Of a DNA stretch of 37,620 nt, positions 6,115 to 37,620 are shown piece after piece. Positions within the stretch are counted from its first letter, which is position 1. Every line of letters starts with the position of its first letter. The DNA is from a virus: positions 1-37,620 of the IMG/VR virus record IMGVR_UViG_3300010938_000086, one strand, 5' to 3'. The position numbers and the translations under genes are program-made. A model generated the notes under the pieces. It searched no databases. It worked only from the letters and a program-made list of their open reading frames with translations, and had not been told where the DNA came from.

Positions 6115-6145
6115 TTAGTGGATAATTGCCCAGCAATCTGGTGGA

Positions 6146-6221
6146 GTGCGGGCGGTAGTAATCCTATCGCCCGCACAGTGATATGTGGGGTGCGGGCGAT
6201 GGTAATTCTATCGCCCGCCCC
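6146..6221 (+). repeat. Tandem duplicated hairpins downstream of the capsid gene
   Basis: Two near copies of one stem-loop follow the capsid stop. The first (6146-6176) has perfect 9-bp arms GTGCGGGCG/CGCCCGCAC. The second (6187-6221) has GCGGGCGAT/ATCGCCCGC, extended by GGG/CCC across one bulged T. Loops share GTAAT and CT. Neither is followed by a T-run. The second ends 8 bases before the adaptor ATG (6230), which has no clear ribosome site, so the pair may stabilise the capsid mRNA 3' end and hold down adaptor translation. Confidence 0.7.
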
Positions 6222-6229
6222 GTAATATT

Positions 6230-26475: not shown

Positions 26476-26713
26476 CGGACGCCTCCTTTTCTTTTTGTTC
26501 TTCGAGCCACTCGCGGAGTTCCTGTTCTGACCTGAACAAACGAAAGAATGTCATTTCATTTCGCTCGTTGAATACAGCGGCAACGAAATCAGTGTCTTCA
26601 ATTCCATCGCGAAAACGCAGATAGAAGCGTGGGCTTACGAGGACGGCAGTAGCGCCCTCTGCCCTGAGCACCTGCACGACCTTCTCCAGAAGTTCAAGTT
26701 CATCTCTTTTCAC
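26450..26713 (-). CDS. Small early protein of the TFFR-type family (GTG start), 87 residues
   Basis: The start is GTG at 26713, chosen because the cassette AAAGGAGGTGAAGC sits at exactly the spacing used before ATG in neighbouring genes. The C-terminal part, FNERNEMTFFRLFRSEQELR, matches the upstream gene (FDEHNKMTFFRWFDSEQELR), so the two are tandem paralogs. Function unknown. Confidence 0.6.
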   Translation of the reverse strand: MKRDELELLEKVVQVLRAEGATAVLVSPRFYLRFRDGIEDTDFVAAVFNERNEMTFFRLFRSEQELREWLEEQKEKEASDDRNYRQS

Positions 26714-26936
26714 GCTTCACCTCCTTTACTTTTTGCAAATCAATCCACTGGCGCAACTCCTGCTCGGAGTCGAACCAGCGAAAAAAGGTCATCTTGTTGT
26801 GCTCGTCAAAGAGCGACACGGTGAAGCTTACACGTTCGCATGCGTACAAGAAATCGAAGTTAACGATTCGCCTAACCGAGATGGAACCGTTGTTGTGTTT
26901 GCCTCTAAACGCATCGACAACATCATACTCTATCAT
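26700..26936 (-). CDS. Small early protein of the TFFR-type family, 78 residues
   Basis: ATG 26936 follows AGAAGGAGGTGAAGC. The product MIEYDVVDAFRGKHNNGSIS... contains FDEHNKMTFFRWFDSEQELR, paralogous to the next gene. Its C-terminus VKEVKREKR is encoded by the next gene's ribosome-binding cassette read in another frame. Confidence 0.6.
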   Translation of the reverse strand: MIEYDVVDAFRGKHNNGSISVRRIVNFDFLYACERVSFTVSLFDEHNKMTFFRWFDSEQELRQWIDLQKVKEVKREKR

Positions 26937-27322
26937 GCTTCACCTCCTTCTTTTTTTGGTTCTTTTGACCAATCGTGAACATCACGATATCCACAATAGT
27001 AACAAACAACGGGTGCTTTGCCATGATATTGTTCATCATCTACGATGCCCACTGTGCCGCACGATGGACATCGTAGGAATATCTTGCCGTCCGCAAATGT
27101 AATTGTTTGCTCTTCTATCTTTTCTATCTCGTCGAAAGATTGTTCGAGTGCCTTTTTGAATGCGTCGCTAAACTCTTGATGCAGCCGTCTCCAATGCGGG
27201 CACGATTTATAGCCGCGTTGCCAGCATATCGCACACGCGTTCTTGTGATGCACACACTGCTCGAATGCGTAGACGCAGCCGCGAAGTCGAGCGAGAATAA
27301 TGCGTTCTCTAAATGAGTTCAT
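26933..27322 (-). CDS. Two-site zinc-ribbon early protein, 129 residues
   Basis: ATG 27322 follows AAAGGAGGTGAAGC. The N-terminal half has CVYAFEQCVHHKNACAICW and SCPHW; the C-terminal half is a rubredoxin-like ribbon (FLRCPSCGTVGIV, then VVCYYCGYRDV). The end reads GGEA, encoded by the next gene's ribosome site. Likely a nucleic-acid or protein binding regulator, not further recognised. Confidence 0.6.
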   Translation of the reverse strand: MNSFRERIILARLRGCVYAFEQCVHHKNACAICWQRGYKSCPHWRRLHQEFSDAFKKALEQSFDEIEKIEEQTITFADGKIFLRCPSCGTVGIVDDEQYHGKAPVVCYYCGYRDVHDWSKEPKKEGGEA

Positions 27323-27543
27323 GCTTCACCTCCTTTATTTTTCCTTCCTTCTCTCCTCTTTAGTTCTTTCTGAACGATGTTCACAATGTCTTCTGCGAAC
27401 ATCTTTAGTAATTCAAGCCGTGCTTCTTTTGTCTGGCAATCTGTGTCGGCGTAACACACCATAGTCCACGCAACGTGTCCTACGAGTCCCCAAGAGCGCA
27501 AGTCGTCTGGGCTGATTCCTGACTTACCGCTTTCAATTCTCAT
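27319..27543 (-). CDS. Small early protein, 74 residues
   Basis: ATG 27543 follows AAAAAGGAGGTGAAGC and overlaps the upstream TGA (ATGA). The product MRIESGKSGISPDDLRSWGL... is mixed helical with LELLKMFAEDIVNIVQKEL near the end and C-terminal GGEA. Function unknown. Confidence 0.55.
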   Translation of the reverse strand: MRIESGKSGISPDDLRSWGLVGHVAWTMVCYADTDCQTKEARLELLKMFAEDIVNIVQKELKRREGRKNKGGEA

Positions 27544-27818
27544 GCTTCACCTCCTTTTTCTCTCTCCACTTCCTTCTTCCATTTTTGCGCCCATTGATAA
27601 AGCGGCAATGCCGCTTGCAACAGTTCTTTGTCTTGCCGCATCGCTTCGCCCTTCTCCTGATACAGCGTCGGGTCAAGAAACCATGCTGTATTTTCCACAC
27701 GCTCGATGGCTTTCAAGTATCCGGGGATGTCAATCAGCGAAATCGTGCACGCGGCAATTGCGAGCACATGCAGGTCGTTCTGATACTTTACTACATGGTC
27801 ATCTTCCCTTTCTGTCAT
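27540..27818 (-). CDS. Small early protein, 92 residues
   Basis: ATG 27818 follows AGAAGGAGGTGAAGC. The product MTEREDDHVVKYQNDLHVLA... is helical, without Cys pairs; its end is EREKGGEA, again encoded by the downstream ribosome site. Function unknown. Confidence 0.55.
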   Translation of the reverse strand: MTEREDDHVVKYQNDLHVLAIAACTISLIDIPGYLKAIERVENTAWFLDPTLYQEKGEAMRQDKELLQAALPLYQWAQKWKKEVEREKGGEA

Positions 27819-27991
27819 GCTTCACCTCCTTCTTCGTCTTCTTCCTCCTCCGCCACTTGTCCCGTTCCGCCGCACGTCTCGCACGTGCGATAGACGTGCG
27901 TGGCATCAAGGTCGTCATAACTATATCCGACCTGATGCCATCGGATTTCCTCAAAGCGACCTTCGCCGTGGCAATCAGGGCATTCTTTCAT
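27815..27991 (-). CDS. DnaJ-type zinc-finger mini-protein, 58 residues
   Basis: Two CxxCxGxG motifs, CPDCHGEG (C4, C7) and CETCGGTG (C37, C40), define a DnaJ cysteine-rich type zinc site in a free-standing small protein. An acidic tail (EEEEDEE) leads to GGEA. The start at 27991 overlaps the previous TGA and follows AAAAGGAGGTGCAAA. Such free modules are common in phages; role unknown. Confidence 0.65.
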   Translation of the reverse strand: MKECPDCHGEGRFEEIRWHQVGYSYDDLDATHVYRTCETCGGTGQVAEEEEDEEGGEA

Positions 27992-28212
27992 TTTGCACCT
28001 CCTTTTCCTTTACTATTGCTTTTTGTGCGCTTCAACCTTTCGTTAATGCACTTTGGACAATACCAGCCGCCACGCCACTCTTGCCATCTCGCTTTCTTCG
28101 CATCCGTCATCAACAACCACTTGTCATAGTAGAAACACTTACCCTTATCATCGGAAAATTTACAGCGACATGAGTCGCACACGAGGATATTTACATAGCA
28201 CATCTCTATCAT
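27988..28212 (-). CDS. Zinc-ribbon early protein, 74 residues
   Basis: ATG 28212 (MIEMCYVNILVCDSC) is chosen because AAAGGAGA lies eight bases upstream; earlier in-frame ATGs sit before or inside that site. Cys pairs CDSC (12, 15) and CPKC (52, 55), plus C5, C17 and C26, suggest a zinc ribbon. It ends KGKGGAK, encoded by the next ribosome site. Confidence 0.6.
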   Translation of the reverse strand: MIEMCYVNILVCDSCRCKFSDDKGKCFYYDKWLLMTDAKKARWQEWRGGWYCPKCINERLKRTKSNSKGKGGAK

Positions 28213-28276
28213 TCCAGCATCTCCTTTCATGCGGTCGCCACTCCGCGGTTCGCGCGATGTAAAGTCGCGCAGGCGG

Positions 28277-28309
28277 AAGGCAGGGCAGGTATAGAACCCA
28301 CCCTGCCTT
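28277..28309 (-). repeat. T-arm-like hairpin, copy 1 (between clamp-like gene and zinc-ribbon gene)
   Basis: Minus strand AAGGCAGGG pairs with CCCTGCCTT; the inner stem with wobble pairs closes a seven-base loop TTCTATA. It lies 13 bases after the stop of the clamp-like gene. The following bases (28213-28276) hold another small inverted repeat (GCGCGA/TCGCGC). Loop TTCTA matches copies 2 and 3. Confidence 0.6.
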
Positions 28310-28321
28310 GTGGAGAGAGAG

Positions 28322-29041
28322 TTAGACCTGTGCTTGTTCGCCTCCTGAAGGGACAGGGTCATCGTCGTTAGTCATGGGCATAACGAGCGACATCACTTCG
28401 CGCTCCTCGCCGACGGAGCGGATAACGATGGCTCTGTCCGTATGCTTGAGCGACCCGCGAACCTCTATCCGCACCATTGGGTCGCCGCGACCTTCGTGGA
28501 GTTTAGCGTAGATGTTCAACACTTTGGCGAGCAAGTCAGGATTCACATAGAAGTAAGCGAGCGGTTCGCCTTTGGGTTGAACAGCGTCGATGTCGGGATA
28601 GACGATGTCGGTGATGTCCTTCTTGGAGATTTCACCCAGCGCATCGGTTACAAGCGCGTTGCCTTGAGCGGTTCGAGCGACAACTACATACTCATACGCA
28701 GGGAATGCCACTTTAGGCAGGGCTTTAGCAACGTCATTAAGCGCAGTGAACGACACGTTGACGTTGCCACTTATCGGCTCGATGTTGCTACGAACACCAC
28801 TGCCGTCAAGAGTCGGCTTCTCCTTGACAGAGACGAGAGCGCGTCCGTTAGTGGCATGGATTTCGGACGTGCCGTTCTGACGCCGCAAATGAACGACGTC
28901 ATAGTAGGCACGGGCACGTTCGATAGTGCCCATAAACGGCTTTAGTGCCGTAGGCACGCTCTTGTGGACAAGGTGGAATGGACGTTCCACCTTCGGCTGT
29001 GTCTCTGGTTCATTCACTTGGACTTCCTTTACTTCTGACAT
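28322..29041 (-). CDS. Sliding-clamp (DnaN)-like protein, 239 residues
   Basis: The pattern EIHATNGRALVSV (about 79-91), IVYPDIDAVQP (about 162-172), YVNPDLLAKVLNIYAKL and the end RAIVIRS...VMSLVMPM resembles beta-clamp domains, where 'aTdghrl', 'yPd', '...n...L...l' and a terminal 'liMPm' are typical. At 239 residues it is shorter than DnaN (about 370), so it would hold two rather than three domains. The phage has no DNA polymerase, so it might redirect or replace the host clamp (inference). ATG 29041 follows TTGAAGGAGGTATAACT; an upstream in-frame ATG lacks a site. Confidence 0.5.
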   Translation of the reverse strand: MSEVKEVQVNEPETQPKVERPFHLVHKSVPTALKPFMGTIERARAYYDVVHLRRQNGTSEIHATNGRALVSVKEKPTLDGSGVRSNIEPISGNVNVSFTALNDVAKALPKVAFPAYEYVVVARTAQGNALVTDALGEISKKDITDIVYPDIDAVQPKGEPLAYFYVNPDLLAKVLNIYAKLHEGRGDPMVRIEVRGSLKHTDRAIVIRSVGEEREVMSLVMPMTNDDDPVPSGGEQAQV

Positions 29042-29073
29042 AGTTATACCTCCTTCAATCGTTATATGCGCAG

Positions 29074-29090
29074 GCAGGATTAGAACCTGC
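29074..29090 (-). repeat. T-arm-like hairpin, copy 2
   Basis: Minus strand GCAGG-TTCTAAT-CCTGC: a perfect five-base stem with a seven-base loop as in a tRNA T-arm. It starts within 13 bases of the TAG of the small gene at 29103 and precedes the clamp-like gene. No matching acceptor, D or anticodon arm is present. Confidence 0.6.
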
Positions 29091-29102
29091 TCTGGCAGGA
29101 AA

Positions 29103-29267
29103 CTATCTGGGCATCTCGACCCAGCCATCTTCGCCTTTTCTATACCGACTGTAACAATCATCACAGAGCCAGCGAACGTAAGATTTGAATCTACCCTTTG
29201 TAAATTCGGTAAACCTGACTCTTATCGTTCGACGGTTGCGCTTGCATCTTGAGCAAGTTTTTTCCAT
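29103..29267 (-). CDS. Zinc-ribbon mini-protein, 54 residues
   Basis: ATG 29267 follows AAGGAGGTATGAAC; an ATG at 29273 is too close to the site. The product MEKTCSRCKRNRRTIRVRF...WLCDDCYSRYR has CSRC (5, 8) and CDDC (35, 38), a minimal zinc ribbon in a basic protein, likely nucleic-acid binding. Stop TAG at 29103-29105. Confidence 0.6.
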   Translation of the reverse strand: MEKTCSRCKRNRRTIRVRFTEFTKGRFKSYVRWLCDDCYSRYRKGEDGWVEMPR

Positions 29268-29269
29268 GT

Positions 29270-29698
29270 TCATACCTCCTTCAAAACGTTAGCAGATTTG
29301 GCACTCTCCAGCCAGCCCTGCTCCTTTATGTTCCTATCCCATACACGACAAAACGACTCGACATCCTTCCGCGCCTGCGGGTCTTCGTAGACCTTATCGT
29401 ACTCGACGTAAAGAACCTTCTGCCGAACGGCAAGTGAGTCGAGGATATACTCTACAGGACACCATTGCTCGAAGCCCTCCGTCGTGCTAAAGACCACCTC
29501 TGGGTCGCGCATGATGTCGCCGTTCTGCTCGTAGTAGTGCATGACGGAGAGCAGTTGCCCAAACCGCCGTGCATATACTCCGAGATGTTGAATCACAAGT
29601 GGCTCGTAGCCGCCTAACTCAAGTTTAATCGGTCGCTTCGTCAGTATCTCCCAGCCGCCGTGCTTCTGGATTACCTTCGTAAGATTCGGCATTTTCAT
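29270..29698 (-). CDS. Early protein, 142 residues, DUF6908-like (tentative)
   Basis: The product MKMPNLTKVIQKHGGWEILT... contains LSVMHYYEQNGDIMRDPEVVF, a segment I associate with the DUF6908 family of phage and mobile-element proteins of unknown role. The C-terminal part is helical. ATG 29698 follows TTGAAGGAGGTATGTT. It ends LKEV, encoded by the next ribosome site. Confidence 0.6.
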   Translation of the reverse strand: MKMPNLTKVIQKHGGWEILTKRPIKLELGGYEPLVIQHLGVYARRFGQLLSVMHYYEQNGDIMRDPEVVFSTTEGFEQWCPVEYILDSLAVRQKVLYVEYDKVYEDPQARKDVESFCRVWDRNIKEQGWLESAKSANVLKEV

Positions 29699-29733
29699 AA
29701 CATACCTCCTTCAACACAATTGATTCAGGCAGG

Positions 29734-29748
29734 CAGGAGTAGAACCTG
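29734..29748 (-). repeat. T-arm-like hairpin, copy 3
   Basis: Minus strand CAGG-TTCTACT-CCTG, with flanking GGCAGGT/CTGCC giving a longer imperfect stem (29727-29755). It follows the stop of the gene at 29765 and precedes the DUF6908-like gene. The loop TTCTACT matches copies 1 and 2. Confidence 0.6.
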
Positions 29749-29764
29749 ACCTGCCGAGAGGGGG

Positions 29765-30001
29765 TTATACCTCCTTAACCTTCTCCCATCCCTCTGGCCA
29801 GTTCTTATCATGGGGCCAGGAAGGGATTTCTCCCTCGCGCGTTCGAACATATCTGGTTCCGTCACAGCAGAACGCGTCTGCAAACCACGTGCGTCCTGCA
29901 CTGTAGTCGGCCCACGATACTTCGATTCGGCAGCCACAGGGGGCCTGCCACCGCCAGCCCGCTCGCGGCGCATAGTCTATAAATTCCCATTCCCTTGTCA
30001 T
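29765..30001 (-). CDS. Trp/Cys-containing small early protein, 78 residues
   Basis: ATG 30001 follows GAAGGAGGTGCAGC. The product MTREWEFIDYAPRAGWRWQA... has seven Trp and Cys pairs CGC (22, 24) and CC (45, 46), so a zinc site is possible. It ends KVKEV at a ribosome-site-like AAGGAGG that is followed by hairpin copy 3 rather than a gene. Function unknown. Confidence 0.5.
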   Translation of the reverse strand: MTREWEFIDYAPRAGWRWQAPCGCRIEVSWADYSAGRTWFADAFCCDGTRYVRTREGEIPSWPHDKNWPEGWEKVKEV

Positions 30002-30022
30002 GCTGCACCTCCTTCGGAAAGA

Positions 30023-30214
30023 TTACTGCTGCTTCTCCTGCTTCTCGCGTGCCTTTATCTCGGCTATCCGCGCACGCATCCGCTCACGCTCTTGCAACAT
30101 AGCGAGTTCGAGTCCGTCCGCGTTCCTGTGCAGTTTGCACAGCGCGACGCCGTTCAGGCGTGCCGCTGTTCGCTCACCGCACACAGCGCATTCGTAATAC
30201 TTTGTTTCCACCAT
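30023..30214 (-). CDS. Zinc-finger + coiled-coil early protein, 63 residues
   Basis: ATG 30214 follows TTGAAGGAGGTATAACT. CAVCG (9, 12) and LCKLH (C26, H29) make a likely C2CH site, followed by a charged helix (MLQERERMRARIAEIKAREK). Stop TAA at 30023-30025. Function unknown. Confidence 0.6.
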   Translation of the reverse strand: MVETKYYECAVCGERTAARLNGVALCKLHRNADGLELAMLQERERMRARIAEIKAREKQEKQQ

Positions 30215-30216
30215 AG

Positions 30217-30477
30217 TTATACCTCCTTCAATCTGGTACACGCCGCGCAGCAACGCGGCAAATTCCCCCTCTCTGGCATTTTCCTGTCCTTCGGGAAGTA
30301 GGGTGTCATCTCCTTTGCTCTCACCCACTGCTGGCAATCACTGCACCAATCAGACGCCTCTAAAGCAATGCTGCCACAGTGCGGACAACCGTCTACCAAT
30401 TCTCCACGCACGATATACTCCACAGTTAGTATACCTCGCCTGCAACTCGGACACCATCTTCTACCATGCCTATACAT
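30217..30477 (-). CDS. Multi-Cys zinc-ribbon early protein, 86 residues
   Basis: ATG 30477 follows TTGAAGGAGGTGAAGC. Cys pairs CPSC (9, 12), CPHC (31, 34), CSDC (45, 48) and CCAAC (76-80) suggest two zinc ribbons. It overlaps the upstream gene by eight bases and ends LKEV, encoded by the next ribosome site. Confidence 0.6.
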   Translation of the reverse strand: MYRHGRRWCPSCRRGILTVEYIVRGELVDGCPHCGSIALEASDWCSDCQQWVRAKEMTPYFPKDRKMPERGNLPRCCAACTRLKEV

Positions 30478-30670
30478 GCTTCACCTCCTTCAATCGCTTC
30501 CATGCTTCTCGCGCACATTCAGGCGAGCAGAAAAACCAGCCGCGCTCGTAAATCGACGGTTCGCACCCTATGCAGAATACGCGCGTGCAGCGCGGATTCC
30601 CACAGAGCAGCGGACACATACCCCAGCAACATCGATACTTCGTAATCTCAACATTGTATACTTCGTTCAT
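30470..30670 (-). CDS. Cys-rich early protein, 66 residues
   Basis: ATG 30670 follows TTGAAGGAGGTGAAGC. Nine Cys in 66 residues (14, 15, 19, 23, 28, 33, 36, 48, 52), with FCIGCEP and FFCSPECAREAW, resemble FCS/MYM-type treble zinc sites. It ends LKEVKHV through the ribosome cassette of the next gene read in another frame. Confidence 0.6.
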   Translation of the reverse strand: MNEVYNVEITKYRCCWGMCPLLCGNPRCTRVFCIGCEPSIYERGWFFCSPECAREAWKRLKEVKHV

Positions 30671-30682
30671 GCTTCACCTCCT

Positions 30683-30973
30683 TCAAACCTTTGCCGCAAC
30701 ATCGTCTTTCGTAACCCTTCTCCATCCACCCTTCTCTCCCTCTGCATACGCCCGCGTAAGATACCGCTTCGCCTTGCGGTCGCAGTCCCAGATGAACCAT
30801 ACTATACTCAATCCCTGCACGACAGGACATTCTAACACGACTGCCTGTCCGTCAAGTTTACCATTCTCGGCATCTACAATCTCTCTGTTTATACAGACAG
30901 GAGCAATCATGAATAGACGAGGGACTTCCTCTAACCGTGTCAAGTCCGCAATGTTTAGTGCAATCCTTCTCAT
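30683..30973 (-). CDS. Small early protein, 96 residues
   Basis: ATG 30973 (MRRIALNIADLTRLEEVPRL) follows GGGGAGGTAAAC; an earlier in-frame ATG would start within the upstream gene. It is mixed beta/helix with CDRKAKRYLTRAYAEGE near the end. No family recognised. Confidence 0.55.
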   Translation of the reverse strand: MRRIALNIADLTRLEEVPRLFMIAPVCINREIVDAENGKLDGQAVVLECPVVQGLSIVWFIWDCDRKAKRYLTRAYAEGEKGGWRRVTKDDVAAKV

Positions 30974-31173: not shown

Positions 31174-31278
31174 GTCTGTCCTCCTTCAACTACATGCGCT
31201 CCGCCGCCGCCACCGCCTCCTACGGACGGGGTTAGGCGACTTCGCTGAAAATTTTGTCGCAAAACTTGTGCCAACTTG

Positions 31279-31310
31279 ATTGCGCATAAAATTCGCAATT
31301 TGCGCATAAA
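31279..31310. repeat. Direct repeat of TTGCGCATAAA in the leader of the early operon
   Basis: TGCGCATAAA occurs at 31281-31290 and 31301-31310, 20 bases apart. Related forms occur at 31389 (ATTGCGTAA), 31479 (AATTGCGCAAAA), 31503 (AATTGCGTATAAT), 32421-32430 (reverse, AATTGCGCAT) and 32552 (GATTGCGCATAAT). They may be binding sites for one regulator. Confidence 0.5.
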
Positions 31311-31329
31311 TAATGTTAAGGCGAAATGT

Positions 31330-31372
31330 GGCATAGAATTTGCTAATGCCGATTCTACGCAAAAACTATGCC
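31330..31372. promoter_or_regulatory. Hairpin in the divergent control region
   Basis: GGCATAG (31330-31336) pairs with CTATGCC (31366-31372), and inside TTTGC (339-343 of 31 kb) pairs with GCAAA (359-363 of 31 kb) across a two-by-two internal loop. It overlaps the candidate leftward promoter, so it could act as an operator or as a leader structure. Confidence 0.45.
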
Positions 31373-31379
31373 TTGCAAA
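31352..31379 (-). promoter_or_regulatory. Candidate leftward early promoter
   Basis: On the minus strand TTTGCA (31379-31374) and TAGAAT (31357-31352) are 16 bases apart. This gives a leader of about 170 bases before ATG 31173. It is the best hexamer pair I find upstream of the early operon, but it is only moderately close to consensus. Confidence 0.4.
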
Positions 31380-31401
31380 ATTGTGTTTCAATTGCGTAAC
31401 A

Positions 31402-31425
31402 TAGTGTCAAATTTATTTGACACTA
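31402..31425. promoter_or_regulatory. Palindromic operator candidate 1
   Basis: Perfect 11-base arms TAGTGTCAAAT and ATTTGACACTA separated by TT. The centre is 44 bases from the next palindrome. Each contains TTGACA in both directions, so a bound repressor would cover -35-like elements. Confidence 0.7.
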
Positions 31426-31446
31426 ATTTTCACAATGTCGCAAAAT

Positions 31447-31468
31447 ACTGTCAAATTTATTTGACAGT
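31447..31468. promoter_or_regulatory. Palindromic operator candidate 2
   Basis: Perfect 10-base arms ACTGTCAAAT and ATTTGACAGT separated by TT. It shares 9 of 10 arm bases with operator 1, so both are likely bound by the same dimeric protein. Confidence 0.7.
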
Positions 31469-31510
31469 TTATCCCGAAAATTGCGCAAAATGCTTGGTAT
31501 GCGAATTGCG

Positions 31511-31574
31511 TATAATGCCGTAGTGTCGAAAACTCGCAAGTATCGCAAGGATACCCGAGTGAATAGACACTACG
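31511..31574 (+). promoter_or_regulatory. Rightward -10 element and structured leader of the 31590 gene
   Basis: TATAAT at 31511-31516 is a perfect -10; no good -35 is seen 16-18 bases upstream. Just after it, CGTAGTGTC (31519-31527) and GACACTACG (31566-31574) form an outer inverted repeat, with ACTCG/CGAGT and TATC/GATA nested inside. The half-site TAGTGTC is the same as in operator 1, so the structure may be DNA operator, RNA leader fold or both. Confidence 0.5.
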
Positions 31575-31589
31575 TTGAATGAGGAAACT

Positions 31590-32006
31590 ATGACAAACAA
31601 GAATGGCAAAACTGCCACGATGTTCCAAACCCAAACCCAAACACCACGAATTCCTGTTCAATCCCAAACCCCGCAAATTCCTGTTCAAACCCAAGCAGTT
31701 CCAGCAGTAACACCATTATCCGATTTGGTAGTGGCAAAGGAAGTAAAAGACAAAAAAACGGACAAAATGAAAACTCGGTATGAATTGTCCGAAGCAGGTT
31801 CACAGATTCCAGGACTCGCAGTAGGGCATGACTCTGGAAATCTCTACGTCAATGCTTACACTACTGTTGATGATGCTAACGTCTACGTCGTGATTCCTAA
31901 ACCTGCTATTAGGCATGCAGCATGCCCATCGTCTACAGGTATCACTACTGTTGTGCCTATTCGAGTTACAGGACACCTGAACGGTTTTATCAAACTGTCC
32001 ATGTAA
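31590..32006 (+). CDS. Isolated single-gene unit in the control region, 138 residues, unknown
   Basis: ATG 31590 follows GAGGAAACT. The N-terminus is Gln/Pro/Thr-rich with a QTP.IPVQ.Q repeat (about 18-45), then a charged stretch (VAKEVKDKKTDKMKTRYEL), then a beta-rich C-terminal domain (SGNLYVNAYTTVDDANVYVV, TTVVPIRVTGHLNGFIKL). It has its own promoter region with operators and its own terminator, so it is expressed alone. I do not recognise it. An early regulator or anti-host protein is possible (inference). Confidence 0.6.
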   Translation: MTNKNGKTATMFQTQTQTPRIPVQSQTPQIPVQTQAVPAVTPLSDLVVAKEVKDKKTDKMKTRYELSEAGSQIPGLAVGHDSGNLYVNAYTTVDDANVYVVIPKPAIRHAACPSSTGITTVVPIRVTGHLNGFIKLSM

Positions 32007-32022
32007 TCCCCCCCCAGCATAT

Positions 32023-32054
32023 CGGCATGGTATATCACCATGCCGTTTTCTTTT
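32023..32054 (+). terminator. Intrinsic terminator of the 31590 gene
   Basis: A perfect nine-base stem CGGCATGGT/ACCATGCCG with loop ATATC is followed by TTTTCTTTT. It lies 17 bases after the TAA. An eight-C run lies between the stop and the stem. This is the only classic rho-independent terminator I find in the window. Confidence 0.88.
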
Positions 32055-32261
32055 ATCCACACACCATAGCCATACACACCACACACCATATCACCACACC
32101 ACACACCACGTCTTGCATATTTTATGCCCACACACCCCACACCCCGCCCGCACGGGAGAGGGGGGAGGAGAAAAACTGACCTTGCGAATCAGACACACAA
32201 ACTTTTTTTCACGGCGAAGGGGAAGATGATGTTACGCGGGAGAAACGCGAAATTACATATA

Positions 32262-32359
32262 AAAGACAAACTTTACACCACCCCCCGCGGGATTTATCCT
32301 TGTTCGGAGATGTCAAGGGGGCGATAAATCGGCGAGGGGGTAGTGTAAAGTTTGTTTTT
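32262..32359. repeat. Long inverted repeat, 98 bp
   Basis: Arms 32266-32298 and 32323-32355 match at 27 of 33 positions without gaps (one mismatch at arm position 14 and a five-base internal loop at 21-25). The outer arm starts ACAAACTTTACAC and the inner end is GATTTATC. AAA/TTT extends the stem outward past a G.T pair. The loop is 24 bases. Confidence 0.8.
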
Positions 32360-32401
32360 AAGGTGATAAGGTGAGAGGATTTTTGGGCGTATACAAGGGG
32401 G

Positions 32402-32580
32402 AAAAGGGGGTATACATAAAATGCGCAATTGAATTTGGATAGAGGAGAAGTCCGAATCAGACGGAAGCCACACCAAATTTAGAATTTTTCGGAAAAATTC
32501 CAAATTAGGAGTGGTTTTAATCCGAATCGGACATTTCTTTTATCCAAAAACGATTGCGCATAATATGCATACGCCGTTTT
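32402..32580. repeat. Very long gap-free palindrome, 179 bp
   Basis: Bases i and 64982-i (absolute positions) face each other around centre 32491. Of 89 facing pairs I count by hand 68 Watson-Crick, 6 G.T and 15 mismatches, with no insertion or deletion. The inner stem GAATTTTT/AAAAATTC with loop CGG is perfect; outward come TCCGAATC/GATTCGGA-type, TTTGGATA/TATCCAAA and TGCGCAAT/ATTGCGCA blocks. It would fold into a single long hairpin as RNA or extrude as a cruciform. Confidence 0.85.
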
Positions 32581-32592
32581 GATGTGGAAAAT

Positions 32593-32621
32593 TTCGCAGT
32601 GAAACAGAGTGGTGGTATAAT
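32593..32621 (+). promoter_or_regulatory. Rightward promoter candidate after the palindrome
   Basis: TATAAT at 32616-32621 with TGG just before it (extended -10) and TTCGCA at 32593-32598, 17 bases upstream. A second overlapping TATAAT is at 32621-32626. It lies just outside the palindrome. Confidence 0.45.
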
Positions 32622-32772
32622 ATAATGAAACATAGCGCGAAAACGGCGGAGGGGGTAAAAACAGTTTGTGAATAATTTATGTGCGGAGATTGCAAGCGAG
32701 CGAGGTTTTTGAACAGGTTGGCACGAGAGTTGCTACATTACATTCCGTTCGGTGAAAAAATGAAAGAAAAAC

Positions 32773-32801
32773 TTGACAAAGCGGCGTGATTATGCTACAA
32801 T
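32773..32801 (+). promoter_or_regulatory. Strong rightward promoter for the 32.8-kb gene block
   Basis: TTGACA (32773-32778), 17-base spacer, TACAAT (32796-32801), with TGC immediately upstream of the -10 (extended). It is 18 bases before ATG 32820 and should drive the helix-turn-helix genes and possibly the rightward operon. Confidence 0.72.
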
Positions 32802-32819
32802 TTTGGCGGAGGTGAAAAG

Positions 32820-33578
32820 ATGGAAAGTAATGAGAAAGAAAAAGAGGTGGTGAAAAAATTTTTGGAACAGCAATTGAAGAACGACAGGTTATCGTTAGGC
32901 GAGAAGGCGGCGATAAATGAAGACATACGGGAATTGCTGGGAGAGGGGAGAAAAGAAGTGCCGTATTCGATGATGACGAAAAGTCAAAAAATACGGGCAA
33001 ATCGCCGAATGAATGCTGACAAGATAGCAACGGGTGGTCGGCTGCGTTTAGACATATTGCGGTTTAAGAAAGTTGTGAAAAAATTTGGAGCGAGAAGAAT
33101 AGCGAACATTTTAGGGGTGAATGAAAGAACGGTGCGTAGATGGGCAGCATCTACATCAGACCCCATCGTCCATACTAACTCCGTCGCTCACAGCCACATG
33201 ATTTTAACCATGTGCTCGTCCGTCAACGACAAAATCTGCGCATGGTGTCTCAAAGAGACACAATTTCCAGAAATCGCCCCTGTTTGCATCGATTGCTACG
33301 ATAAGCGTATCAAGCCCGTCGAGGAGGTGCGAAAGCGAAAGGAAGCCCCGCCAGAAAAGCCAGAAATCATCGTCGATGAGCCAGAAGGAATTACCCTTCA
33401 GGTCGAGTTGAGAGAAAAGACGGACGAAGAAATAATGGCGGAAGTCGAGCATTACCGTCAAATCGAAGAACAACGCAAATACCCGCGTGGACGACCGTTT
33501 AAGGTCTGCCCGCATTGCCATAAGAATTTGAAAGGAGAAAATCATGAGAGTAATGGTAAACAGCAAGACATTCATTGA
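32820..33578 (+). CDS. Helix-turn-helix + zinc-ribbon protein, 252 residues
   Basis: The N-terminal half is Lys/Glu-rich and ends with a helix-turn-helix GARRIANILGVNERTVRRW (about 90-108). The C-terminal half has CAWCLKE and CIDCYDKR (a zinc ribbon near 140-165) and a final CPHCHKN. Base use changes from purine-rich to pyrimidine-rich near 33150, at the junction between the two parts, suggesting a gene fusion. It is the first gene after the candidate origin and may be a DNA-binding regulator or initiator (inference). GGAGGTGAAAAG precedes the ATG. Confidence 0.65.
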   Translation: MESNEKEKEVVKKFLEQQLKNDRLSLGEKAAINEDIRELLGEGRKEVPYSMMTKSQKIRANRRMNADKIATGGRLRLDILRFKKVVKKFGARRIANILGVNERTVRRWAASTSDPIVHTNSVAHSHMILTMCSSVNDKICAWCLKETQFPEIAPVCIDCYDKRIKPVEEVRKRKEAPPEKPEIIVDEPEGITLQVELREKTDEEIMAEVEHYRQIEEQRKYPRGRPFKVCPHCHKNLKGENHESNGKQQDIH

Positions 33579-33952: not shown

Positions 33953-34303
33953 ATGTGGATTATCCCTCGTAAAAAAGGCAAGGGCTATATCGGCTACATC
34001 GTCGTTATGTGCGAACGAAATGAACGCCATTGGCTCTTGCCGCCAGAAAAGGTCTACGTCTGCGGATTGGGTCTCCCAGATAAAGAAGCAGTCCTGTGGA
34101 AGTGTCAGGGTGGATATATCGATGGTCAGTTCCACCAATGCTGCTGGACAGGTGTTACTGACCTGTGGGGTAGAAAAATTTTTTTGAAAAAGGAGGATAA
34201 AAATGGAAAAAGTGAAAACACGCAGAAGTCGAGGCGTCCCGCCAGAAGTAACCGAACGGTTTACTCAATTGATGAATTTGATTCATTCCGCAAGCGGTCT
34301 TAA
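33953..34303 (+). CDS. Small Cys-containing protein, 116 residues, unknown
   Basis: ATG 33953 is one base after the upstream TAA. The first 78 residues (MWIIPRKKGKGYIGYIVVMC...) are beta-rich with scattered Cys and Trp (WKCQGG, QCCWTG). The last part overlaps the next gene by about 100 bases and is probably just the run-on of an open frame. Function unknown. Confidence 0.5.
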   Translation: MWIIPRKKGKGYIGYIVVMCERNERHWLLPPEKVYVCGLGLPDKEAVLWKCQGGYIDGQFHQCCWTGVTDLWGRKIFLKKEDKNGKSENTQKSRRPARSNRTVYSIDEFDSFRKRS

Positions 34304-36502: not shown

Positions 36503-37620
36503 TGAAGTTCCGTTCGCTCCGTAACAATCCTCTCAAGCGCAGGAGATTTTTTGTCTCCGCTAAAGAATCCTACAATCCAACGCCAAAACAGTTGGAATTT
36601 CGGCGTCTCATTGATGCCGATAAGAAAACTATCCTCTTTCTCGGCGGCAGACAGAGCGGCAAAACATTCGCAGGATGCTGGGAGTTCGTCCGACTCATTT
36701 TCGTCAAACAGCCGCAGCCATATCTCTATTGGGTCGTCGCTCCAACCTATGCCGTCGCCCGTGTCGCAAAACGATACTTCTTCGATAATCCCCTCGTTCG
36801 CACCTGCATCTCTTTCGGCAATCGTCGAGAGGACTGCTACACACTTTCCGTTCCAGAGTTCGGCAAGAGTGGTCGAATCATTGCAACTCACGACGCAACC
36901 GTCGAGTTCCGCACTGCACAAGAACCCGACTTGCTTCGCGGCGGCGTCGTGTCAGCCGTCTGGATTGACGAAGCAGCATTCATCTCCGAAGAATGCTACA
37001 ACGTCCTCAAGCCCACTCTGCTCGCCAGCAACGGCGTGATGCTCTTGACCACAACTCCAAAAGGACGTAATTGGCTTTGCGATGAAGTCATAAAGCGTAA
37101 GAACGATTCGACCTTCGGCTATGTCGTCTCGAAAACCACAGAGAATCCTTATCTCTCTCAAGACCGAATCACTCAACTGCGAAGCGAATACTCCGAAACC
37201 GTCGCACGCCAAGAACTCGACGCGGAGTTCGTCGCATACGAAGGTCTCGTCTATAACGTCCCGCAGGATGTCATCCGCGAAAATCTCGACCTCGACCCGC
37301 AGCATTGCGTCTTCTACGGCGGATGCGACTTCGGATATGCCGACCCGTTCGTGTTCCTCTGGATTGCCTATAACCCGCTCGACAATAAATACTACCTCCT
37401 CGATGAGTATTACAAGCGGCACGAAACGATGGAGACGCACATCACTCGCGTTAAGAATCACCCACTCACACGTCTGCTTCGCCGCGCTTACTGCGACCCG
37501 TCAAATCCCGACGGCATCCGACGCATCATCAACGCTGGCATTCCCGCAGTCCCTTCTTACTCGCGTGATATACTCGCAGGCATCAATCTCGTTCAACTCC
37601 TGCTCGACCAGCGGCGACTC
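36502..37620 (+). CDS. terL: Terminase large subunit, N-terminal and nuclease core (continues at window start)
   Basis: The protein has Walker A GGRQSGKT (48-55), Walker B VWIDEAAF (153-160) with the catalytic Glu, coupling motif TTTPKG (183-188), and the nuclease Asp motifs CDFGYADP (275-282) and CDPSNP (331-336). The frame continues without a break at window base 2. It drives ATP-dependent DNA packaging into the procapsid and cuts the concatemer. The last 82 bases duplicate the window start. Confidence 0.95.
   Translation, partial: MKFRSLRNNPLKRRRFFVSAKESYNPTPKQLEFRRLIDADKKTILFLGGRQSGKTFAGCWEFVRLIFVKQPQPYLYWVVAPTYAVARVAKRYFFDNPLVRTCISFGNRREDCYTLSVPEFGKSGRIIATHDATVEFRTAQEPDLLRGGVVSAVWIDEAAFISEECYNVLKPTLLASNGVMLLTTTPKGRNWLCDEVIKRKNDSTFGYVVSKTTENPYLSQDRITQLRSEYSETVARQELDAEFVAYEGLVYNVPQDVIRENLDLDPQHCVFYGGCDFGYADPFVFLWIAYNPLDNKYYLLDEYYKRHETMETHITRVKNHPLTRLLRRAYCDPSNPDGIRRIINAGIPAVPSYSRDILAGINLVQLLLDQRRL
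37539..37620 (+). repeat. Terminal overlap with bases 1-82 (circular closure)
   Basis: The 82 bases match window bases 1-82 except T at 37566 versus C at 28, a synonymous Arg CGT/CGC change in terL. This is expected for a circular or terminally redundant genome assembled as a linear contig, with one variable site. Confidence 0.9.

Follow-up and report, generated by a model that had tools for sequence, protein, structure and literature searches.

A 179-bp gap-free imperfect palindrome in the longest non-coding gap of a phage genome and its possible place in a DnaA-assisted origin

Why does a phage genome carry, outside its genes, a palindrome of 179 bp whose arms meet without a gap? A sequence-only reading of this locus had proposed that it serves as a cruciform replication origin, encodes a long structured RNA, or blocks transcription in both directions, and had taken the gap-free symmetry as a sign of selection. 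These proposals were weighed against the genome as a whole, hereafter the window, which is the entire 37,620-nt stretch of DNA that was analysed.

Geometry and rarity of the palindrome

The palindrome (32402–32580) was centred on G32491 and its 89 facing pairs comprised 68 Watson–Crick pairs, six G.T pairs, four A.C pairs, and 11 other mismatches. The earlier hand count, including its lack of indels, was thereby reproduced exactly. The mismatches were distributed along both arms, as had also been described, and G.T pairs were not enriched among them. Pairing of facing bases dropped off at once outside positions 32402 and 32580, and a repeat search recovered the same arms (89 nt, 76% matched, with a 1-nt centre).

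When all centres of the window were compared, the number of matches had a mean of 22.0 with a standard deviation (s.d.) of 4.3, which placed the palindrome approximately 10.8 s.d. above the mean as the best ungapped palindrome of the window; the runner-up reached 45 of 89. In an ungapped symmetry scan (match +1, mismatch −1), the palindrome scored 47, and the scores in 228 other loci (~2.2 Mb) were 26 or lower, with the exception of one unrelated chlamydial repeat with a score of 54. The 179-bp imperfect palindrome is real and lies far beyond chance.

The arms differed at 21 of 89 positions (24%), with no indel between them, and the longest perfect run was the 19-bp core. An assembly chimera or a foldback artefact would show near-identical arms, and the divergence of the arms therefore ruled out a recent foldback or a chimera, which removed a doubt raised by the sequence-only reading. 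Of the 40-bp windows sampled in the surrounding gap, the one containing the core (32480–32519) had the highest A+T content, which at 72% was nevertheless only moderate. Among the discordant positions, 11 were purine–purine mismatches and none was pyrimidine–pyrimidine, and the left arm carried a purine at 19 of the 21. The plus strand of the whole gap was 57% purine; the bias at the discordant positions is thus partly compositional, with a left-arm skew that exceeds the composition of the gap. The features of the region are listed in Table 1.

Table 1. Features in and around the palindrome (window coordinates)
Feature	Coordinates	Strand	Basis or remark
Non-coding gap, 813 bp, longest of the genome, containing the whole palindrome	32007–32819	.	
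Intrinsic-terminator-like hairpin closing the upstream plus-strand gene	32023–32045	+	Terminator scan
DnaA box TTATCCACA, perfect consensus	32053–32061	+	Overlaps the CA-rich 22-bp repeats
Two CA-rich 22-bp tandem repeats (77%), possible iterons	32057–32100	+	Repeat search
Second inverted repeat, 37-bp arms (81%), 24-nt loop	32262–32359	.	Folds with z = −7.4 and −8.6
Left arm of the palindrome	32402–32490	+	Repeat search, facing-base count
ATTGCGCAT, degenerate mirror copy of the right-arm motif	32421–32429	-	In left arm
Near-palindromic site GTCCGAATCAGAC	32450–32462	.	In left arm
Perfect 19-bp core GAATTTTTC-G-GAAAAATTC	32482–32500	.	Facing-base count
Right arm of the palindrome	32492–32580	+	Repeat search, facing-base count
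Near-palindromic site ATCCGAATCGGAC	32520–32532	.	In right arm
Near-DnaA box TTATCCAAA	32540–32548	+	In right arm; left-arm mirror is CTATCCAAA
Motif ATTGCGCATAAT, common to 31279, 31299, and 31505	32553–32564	+	In right arm
DnaA box TTTTCCACA	32583–32591	-	2 bp beyond the right arm
Sigma-70-like promoter TTCGCA-17-TATAAT, TG before the -10	32593–32621	+	Promoter scan
DnaA box TTATTCACA	32667–32675	-	84 bp (8.0 helical turns) past the box at 32583, in identical orientation
Sigma-70-like promoter TTGACA-17-TACAAT, TG before the -10	32773–32801	+	Promoter scan, score 11/12
First gene downstream of the gap, 252-aa protein with weak helix-turn-helix match	32820–33578	+	

Genomic setting and search for relatives

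Bases 1–82 recurred at 37539–37620 with one mismatch, and the gene for the large terminase, terL, read across this junction. Therefore, the window is effectively a complete, circularly closed phage genome. The plus-strand genes ran from an operon at 32.8 kb through terL, a GARS-like ATP-grasp gene, and the portal, scaffold, capsid, and tail genes to 20.5 kb, and the minus-strand genes ran from 31.2 down to 20.6 kb. The latter, leftward module encoded a UvrD-like helicase, a DnaG-like primase, a PD-(D/E)XK nuclease, and an Mgm101-type annealing protein. The phage proteins scanned included no recognisable polymerase or DnaB-type helicase, which fits the use of a host replisome. A second gene downstream of the palindrome, at 34203, also gave a weak helix-turn-helix match, and single-sequence structure models of two downstream proteins were of low confidence (mean pLDDT of 57 and 43).

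Several other features of the genome were observed. The GARS-like (PurD-type) ATP-grasp gene (349–1644), located between terL and the portal gene, had distant matches in a Manatee Spring myovirus and in gut and wastewater phage contigs; its assignment as a terminase was rejected. Two G+C-rich hairpins, each a unit of 44 bp, followed one another in tandem between the capsid and adaptor genes (6141–6228) and may form an attenuator. Eight near-identical ribosome-binding and start contexts (AAGGAGGTGAAGCATGA) were found in the leftward genes on the minus strand (26710–30683). The motif TAGCGW (TAGCGA/TAGCGT) occurred 14 times in the window against 30.6 expected, possibly by avoidance of a host restriction site.

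Scans with the helix-turn-helix, portal, helicase, terL, and major capsid (MCP) proteins retrieved relatives at approximately 22–36% identity, none above ~30% over the protein length, and of the 37 window proteins searched, no single locus had counterparts to more than two. The genome thus appears to belong to a bacterial virus without close known relatives in the collections searched, and no relative sharing the palindrome region was found in them. The palindrome was single in the genome, with only chance matches in 257 Gb of genomes and in the viral contigs. Three DNA patterns derived from the arms gave two chance matches in viral contigs; in genomes, 40 matches were obtained where approximately 30 were expected, and at no match did the sequence build a palindrome. 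The hairpin DNA had no significant match in phage and plasmid collections. One locus of a Chlamydiae MAG (L190) was dismissed as a related palindrome, as its matching stretch lay in coding sequence approximately 100 bp from an unrelated inverted repeat and was a coincidence. That inverted repeat (L190:5154–5386) is itself MITE-like, with 85-bp arms (92%) directly after a gene.

Folding of the palindrome

When the region 32380–32600 was folded on both strands, as had been proposed from the sequence, strong structures were obtained with RNA parameters on the plus strand (−89.2 kcal/mol, z = −11.0) and on the minus strand (−79.6 kcal/mol, z = −11.6), and no shuffled sequence equalled either. Folding of the palindrome region with DNA parameters gave z values of −7.0 and −8.5, and the entire 813-nt gap folded on the plus strand with a z of −9.8. 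These energies were compared with those of a neutral-decay simulation, in which a perfect palindrome received 21 random substitutions and was refolded on each strand. The fraction of simulated palindromes at least as stable as the real one was 0.43–0.77 on the plus strand and 0.62–0.85 on the minus strand. Since neutral decay folds equally well, the strong z-scores reflect the palindromic history and do not demonstrate selection on an RNA. The mismatches resemble those of a palindrome that was perfect at first and then acquired substitutions at random, and selection for pairing at the RNA level is unsupported.

The excess of G.T pairs, which had been taken as a slight hint of a plus-strand RNA, did not hold up either: the ratio of G.T to A.C was 6:4 in the palindrome and 1:2 in the neighbouring hairpin (32262–32359), and neither these counts nor the simulation gave a pairing bias towards one strand. 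A long hairpin RNA transcribed from either strand, whether a regulator, a decoy, a defence trigger, or an anti-defence RNA, is accordingly quite unlikely. The very stable folds on both strands, the fold of the whole gap, and the plus-strand purine excess at the discordant positions of the left arm are consistent with such an RNA. It is opposed by the mismatches, which lack an RNA-specific pattern, and by the arrangement of the transcription signals: a terminator-like hairpin is located upstream, the strong promoter-like sites lie downstream of the palindrome, and the promoter-like sites able to feed it score only 9/12, so that no promoter clearly reads in. In addition, Rfam 15 gave no match in the palindrome region at E values up to 1, and a tRNA search found none.

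The proposed two-way transcription block fared no better, because no convergent genes meet at the palindrome and such a block would have little to do there. An intrinsic terminator, i.e. a G+C-rich stem followed by a U-run, was also rejected, as the terminator scan of the palindrome gave only a 7-bp sub-hairpin on the minus strand inside it.

Stability of the symmetry

The sequence-only reading had argued that palindromes of this length are usually unstable in bacteria and that symmetry without a gap points to selection. In E. coli, a 246-bp interrupted palindrome was cut by SbcCD, and an 85-bp palindrome was no target (PMC3315005). Instability is to be expected chiefly of palindromes that are longer and near-perfect, and the premise is weakened here by the mismatches, which leave no perfect run longer than the core. 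The step from symmetry to selection was upheld weakly; that none of the 21 differences is an indel is suggestive, but hairpins are known to arise and be maintained through template switching, and such repair can also preserve symmetry (PMC8794818).

The palindrome might be what is left of a duplication by foldback or template switching, with a symmetry that has no function and arms that decay randomly and are sometimes matched again by template-switch mutation. The fold energy on both strands, equal to that in the neutral-decay simulation, the dispersal of the mismatches over the arms without G.T enrichment, and the known activity of template switching (PMC8794818) all suit such a relic. However, 89 bp have stayed free of indels despite 24% substitution, the mismatches are of a non-random type (11 purine–purine against no pyrimidine–pyrimidine), and the palindrome lies in a control region, among DnaA boxes and shared motifs. 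A functionless relic is considered unlikely.

Motifs shared with the divergent control gap

The second-longest non-coding gap of the genome was the divergent control gap of 410 bp (31180–31589). Exact matches to WTTGCGYATAAW occurred four times, all on the plus strand, at 31279, 31299, and 31505 in this control gap (31.2–31.5 kb) and at 32553 in the right arm of the palindrome; its frequency in other loci was 0.10 per 37.6 kb, a comparison whose significance is indicative only, as the motif was defined after inspection of its sites. WTTGCGYATAAW is possibly a phage-specific promoter or regulator site. The motif common to both gaps indicates that the palindrome is the phage's own regulatory sequence and not a foreign insert. 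The control gap also contained identical 18-bp near-palindromes (TGTCAAATTTATTTGACA) at 31405–31422 and 31449–31466, 44 bp apart, between the leftward module and the gene at 31590; the pair are probable repressor operators.

The palindrome could, on this basis, be regulatory DNA and no origin, in which the inverted sites of the arms (ATTGCGCAT, TATCCAAA, and GTCCGAATCRGAC) would be bound by a phage regulator. This regulator would form a loop in the region or cover it, and would govern a promoter-like site in the right arm as well as the plus-strand promoters at 32593 and 32773. The four copies of WTTGCGYATAAW, the promoter-like sites directly downstream of the palindrome, and the weak helix-turn-helix matches in the genes at 32820 and 34203 speak for this arrangement. 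Against it, the symmetry spans the entire 89-bp arm and not discrete sites, the motif was chosen post hoc, and the DnaA boxes are left unexplained. Purely regulatory DNA is regarded as improbable, to about the same degree as a relic.

DnaA boxes and a candidate origin

Three strict DnaA boxes (TTWTNCACA) were located within 623 bp of the gap (Table 1). Such a cluster had a probability of 0.0002 in local dinucleotide shuffles of the 813-bp gap, and none of 400 whole-genome shuffles placed three boxes within 650 bp. The count of TTWTNCACA in the phage genome was eight, against a background of 3.2 per 37.6 kb in ~2.2 Mb of other loci. The palindrome is tentatively interpreted as a cis-acting DNA element of the main replication and control region of the phage, most likely within a DnaA-assisted origin.

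In this origin, the three boxes (32053, 32583, and 32667) would be bound by host DnaA. Strands might then open in the A+T-rich palindromic core (32480–32520), or hairpins might be extruded there when the DNA is supercoiled. Loading of host DnaB and the replisome would follow, aided by the phage DnaG-like primase and UvrD-like helicase of the leftward module. The mirror-image blocks ATTGCGCAT and TATCCAAA may be bound by proteins and may also link the region with the promoters on either side. Any role of the symmetry itself is one that we infer.

The origin is favoured by the clustering of DnaA boxes beyond chance, the position in the longest non-coding gap, the moderately A+T-rich core, and the primase, helicase, nuclease, and annealing protein of the phage, and mildly by the absence of indels among the 21 differences, which fits a constraint on symmetry. 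It is opposed by the spread of the three boxes over 620 bp, by the lack of a recognised initiator, and by the absence of a GC-skew switch. No initiator gene was recognised, as the gene at 32820 gave a weak helix-turn-helix match only, and the repeat search yielded one pair of imperfect 22-bp repeats in the gap. The third-position GC skew of the plus strand was approximately −0.08 at 26–31 kb and −0.21 at 32.8–36.5 kb; it was negative on both sides of 32.4 kb, without an origin-like sign change there, and changed sign between the 7–15 and 15–20.5 kb blocks and near 26 kb. A GC-skew switch is a common accompaniment of bidirectional origins and not a strict requirement. The cruciform origin first proposed gained from the three-box cluster and from the position in the longest non-coding gap, the GC skew gave no help, and the proposal as a whole is tentative. 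To our knowledge, long palindromes are not usual in DnaA-dependent origins. A more specific version, in which the long gapless imperfect palindrome and not iterons is the functional core, DnaA at the flanking boxes drives hairpin extrusion, and selection keeps the symmetry, is very doubtful.

Comparison with known palindromes and origins

The gap resembled the DnaA-box origins of plasmids and phage-plasmids (P1 oriR, F, and other iteron plasmids) in having DnaA boxes clustered outside genes, beside a promoter and a helix-turn-helix gene, a moderately A+T-rich segment, and possible 22-bp repeats. Unlike these origins, it had no recognised Rep initiator or clear iteron array, and we know of no 179-bp imperfect palindrome in P1 oriR, F, or other iteron-plasmid origins.

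The single-strand origins (sso) of rolling-circle plasmids and of ICEBs1 form a long imperfect hairpin of a size comparable to the phage palindrome. An sso was rejected, as the palindrome lacked the CS-6 motif TAGCGA/T (the nearest TAGCGW was at 33100) and no rolling-circle initiator was found in the phage.

A site for telomere resolution, packaging, or a mobile element (a protelomerase target, a cos- or pac-like site, or a MITE) is highly improbable, and this explanation is already largely refuted. Large palindromes are typical of such sites, the telomeres of phages N15 (telRL) and PY54 scored 24 and 23, respectively, in the symmetry scan, and the palindrome shares with them a long gapless symmetry in a tailed-phage genome; it also lies upstream of the operon leading to terL. 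However, it is longer than these telomeres, odd-centred, and matched at only 76%, which is not near-perfect. No protelomerase-like protein was found: the N15 and PY54 Tel proteins and a profile of the two sequences gave no significant match in the phage genome, and the large unassigned phage proteins had no match in Pfam. Palindromic MITEs, such as that of the Chlamydiae MAG, are likewise long imperfect inverted repeats outside genes. Unlike them, the phage palindrome was a single copy without relatives in the phages, plasmids, bacterial genomes, and viral contigs searched, it carried motifs common to the phage control region, and it was flanked by no clear target-site duplication (only an offset 6-bp GGAAAA at 32400 and 32586). 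A MITE was rejected.

Implications

If the palindrome is merely a decaying foldback duplication, it warns against reading a very strong z-score for folding, even one obtained on both strands, as a sign of an RNA. Palindromes of this size also raise the question of how phages escape SbcCD-type cleavage. If the region is an origin, it would provide a compact replicon that lends itself to testing and a case in which a long palindrome has been kept beside DnaA boxes.
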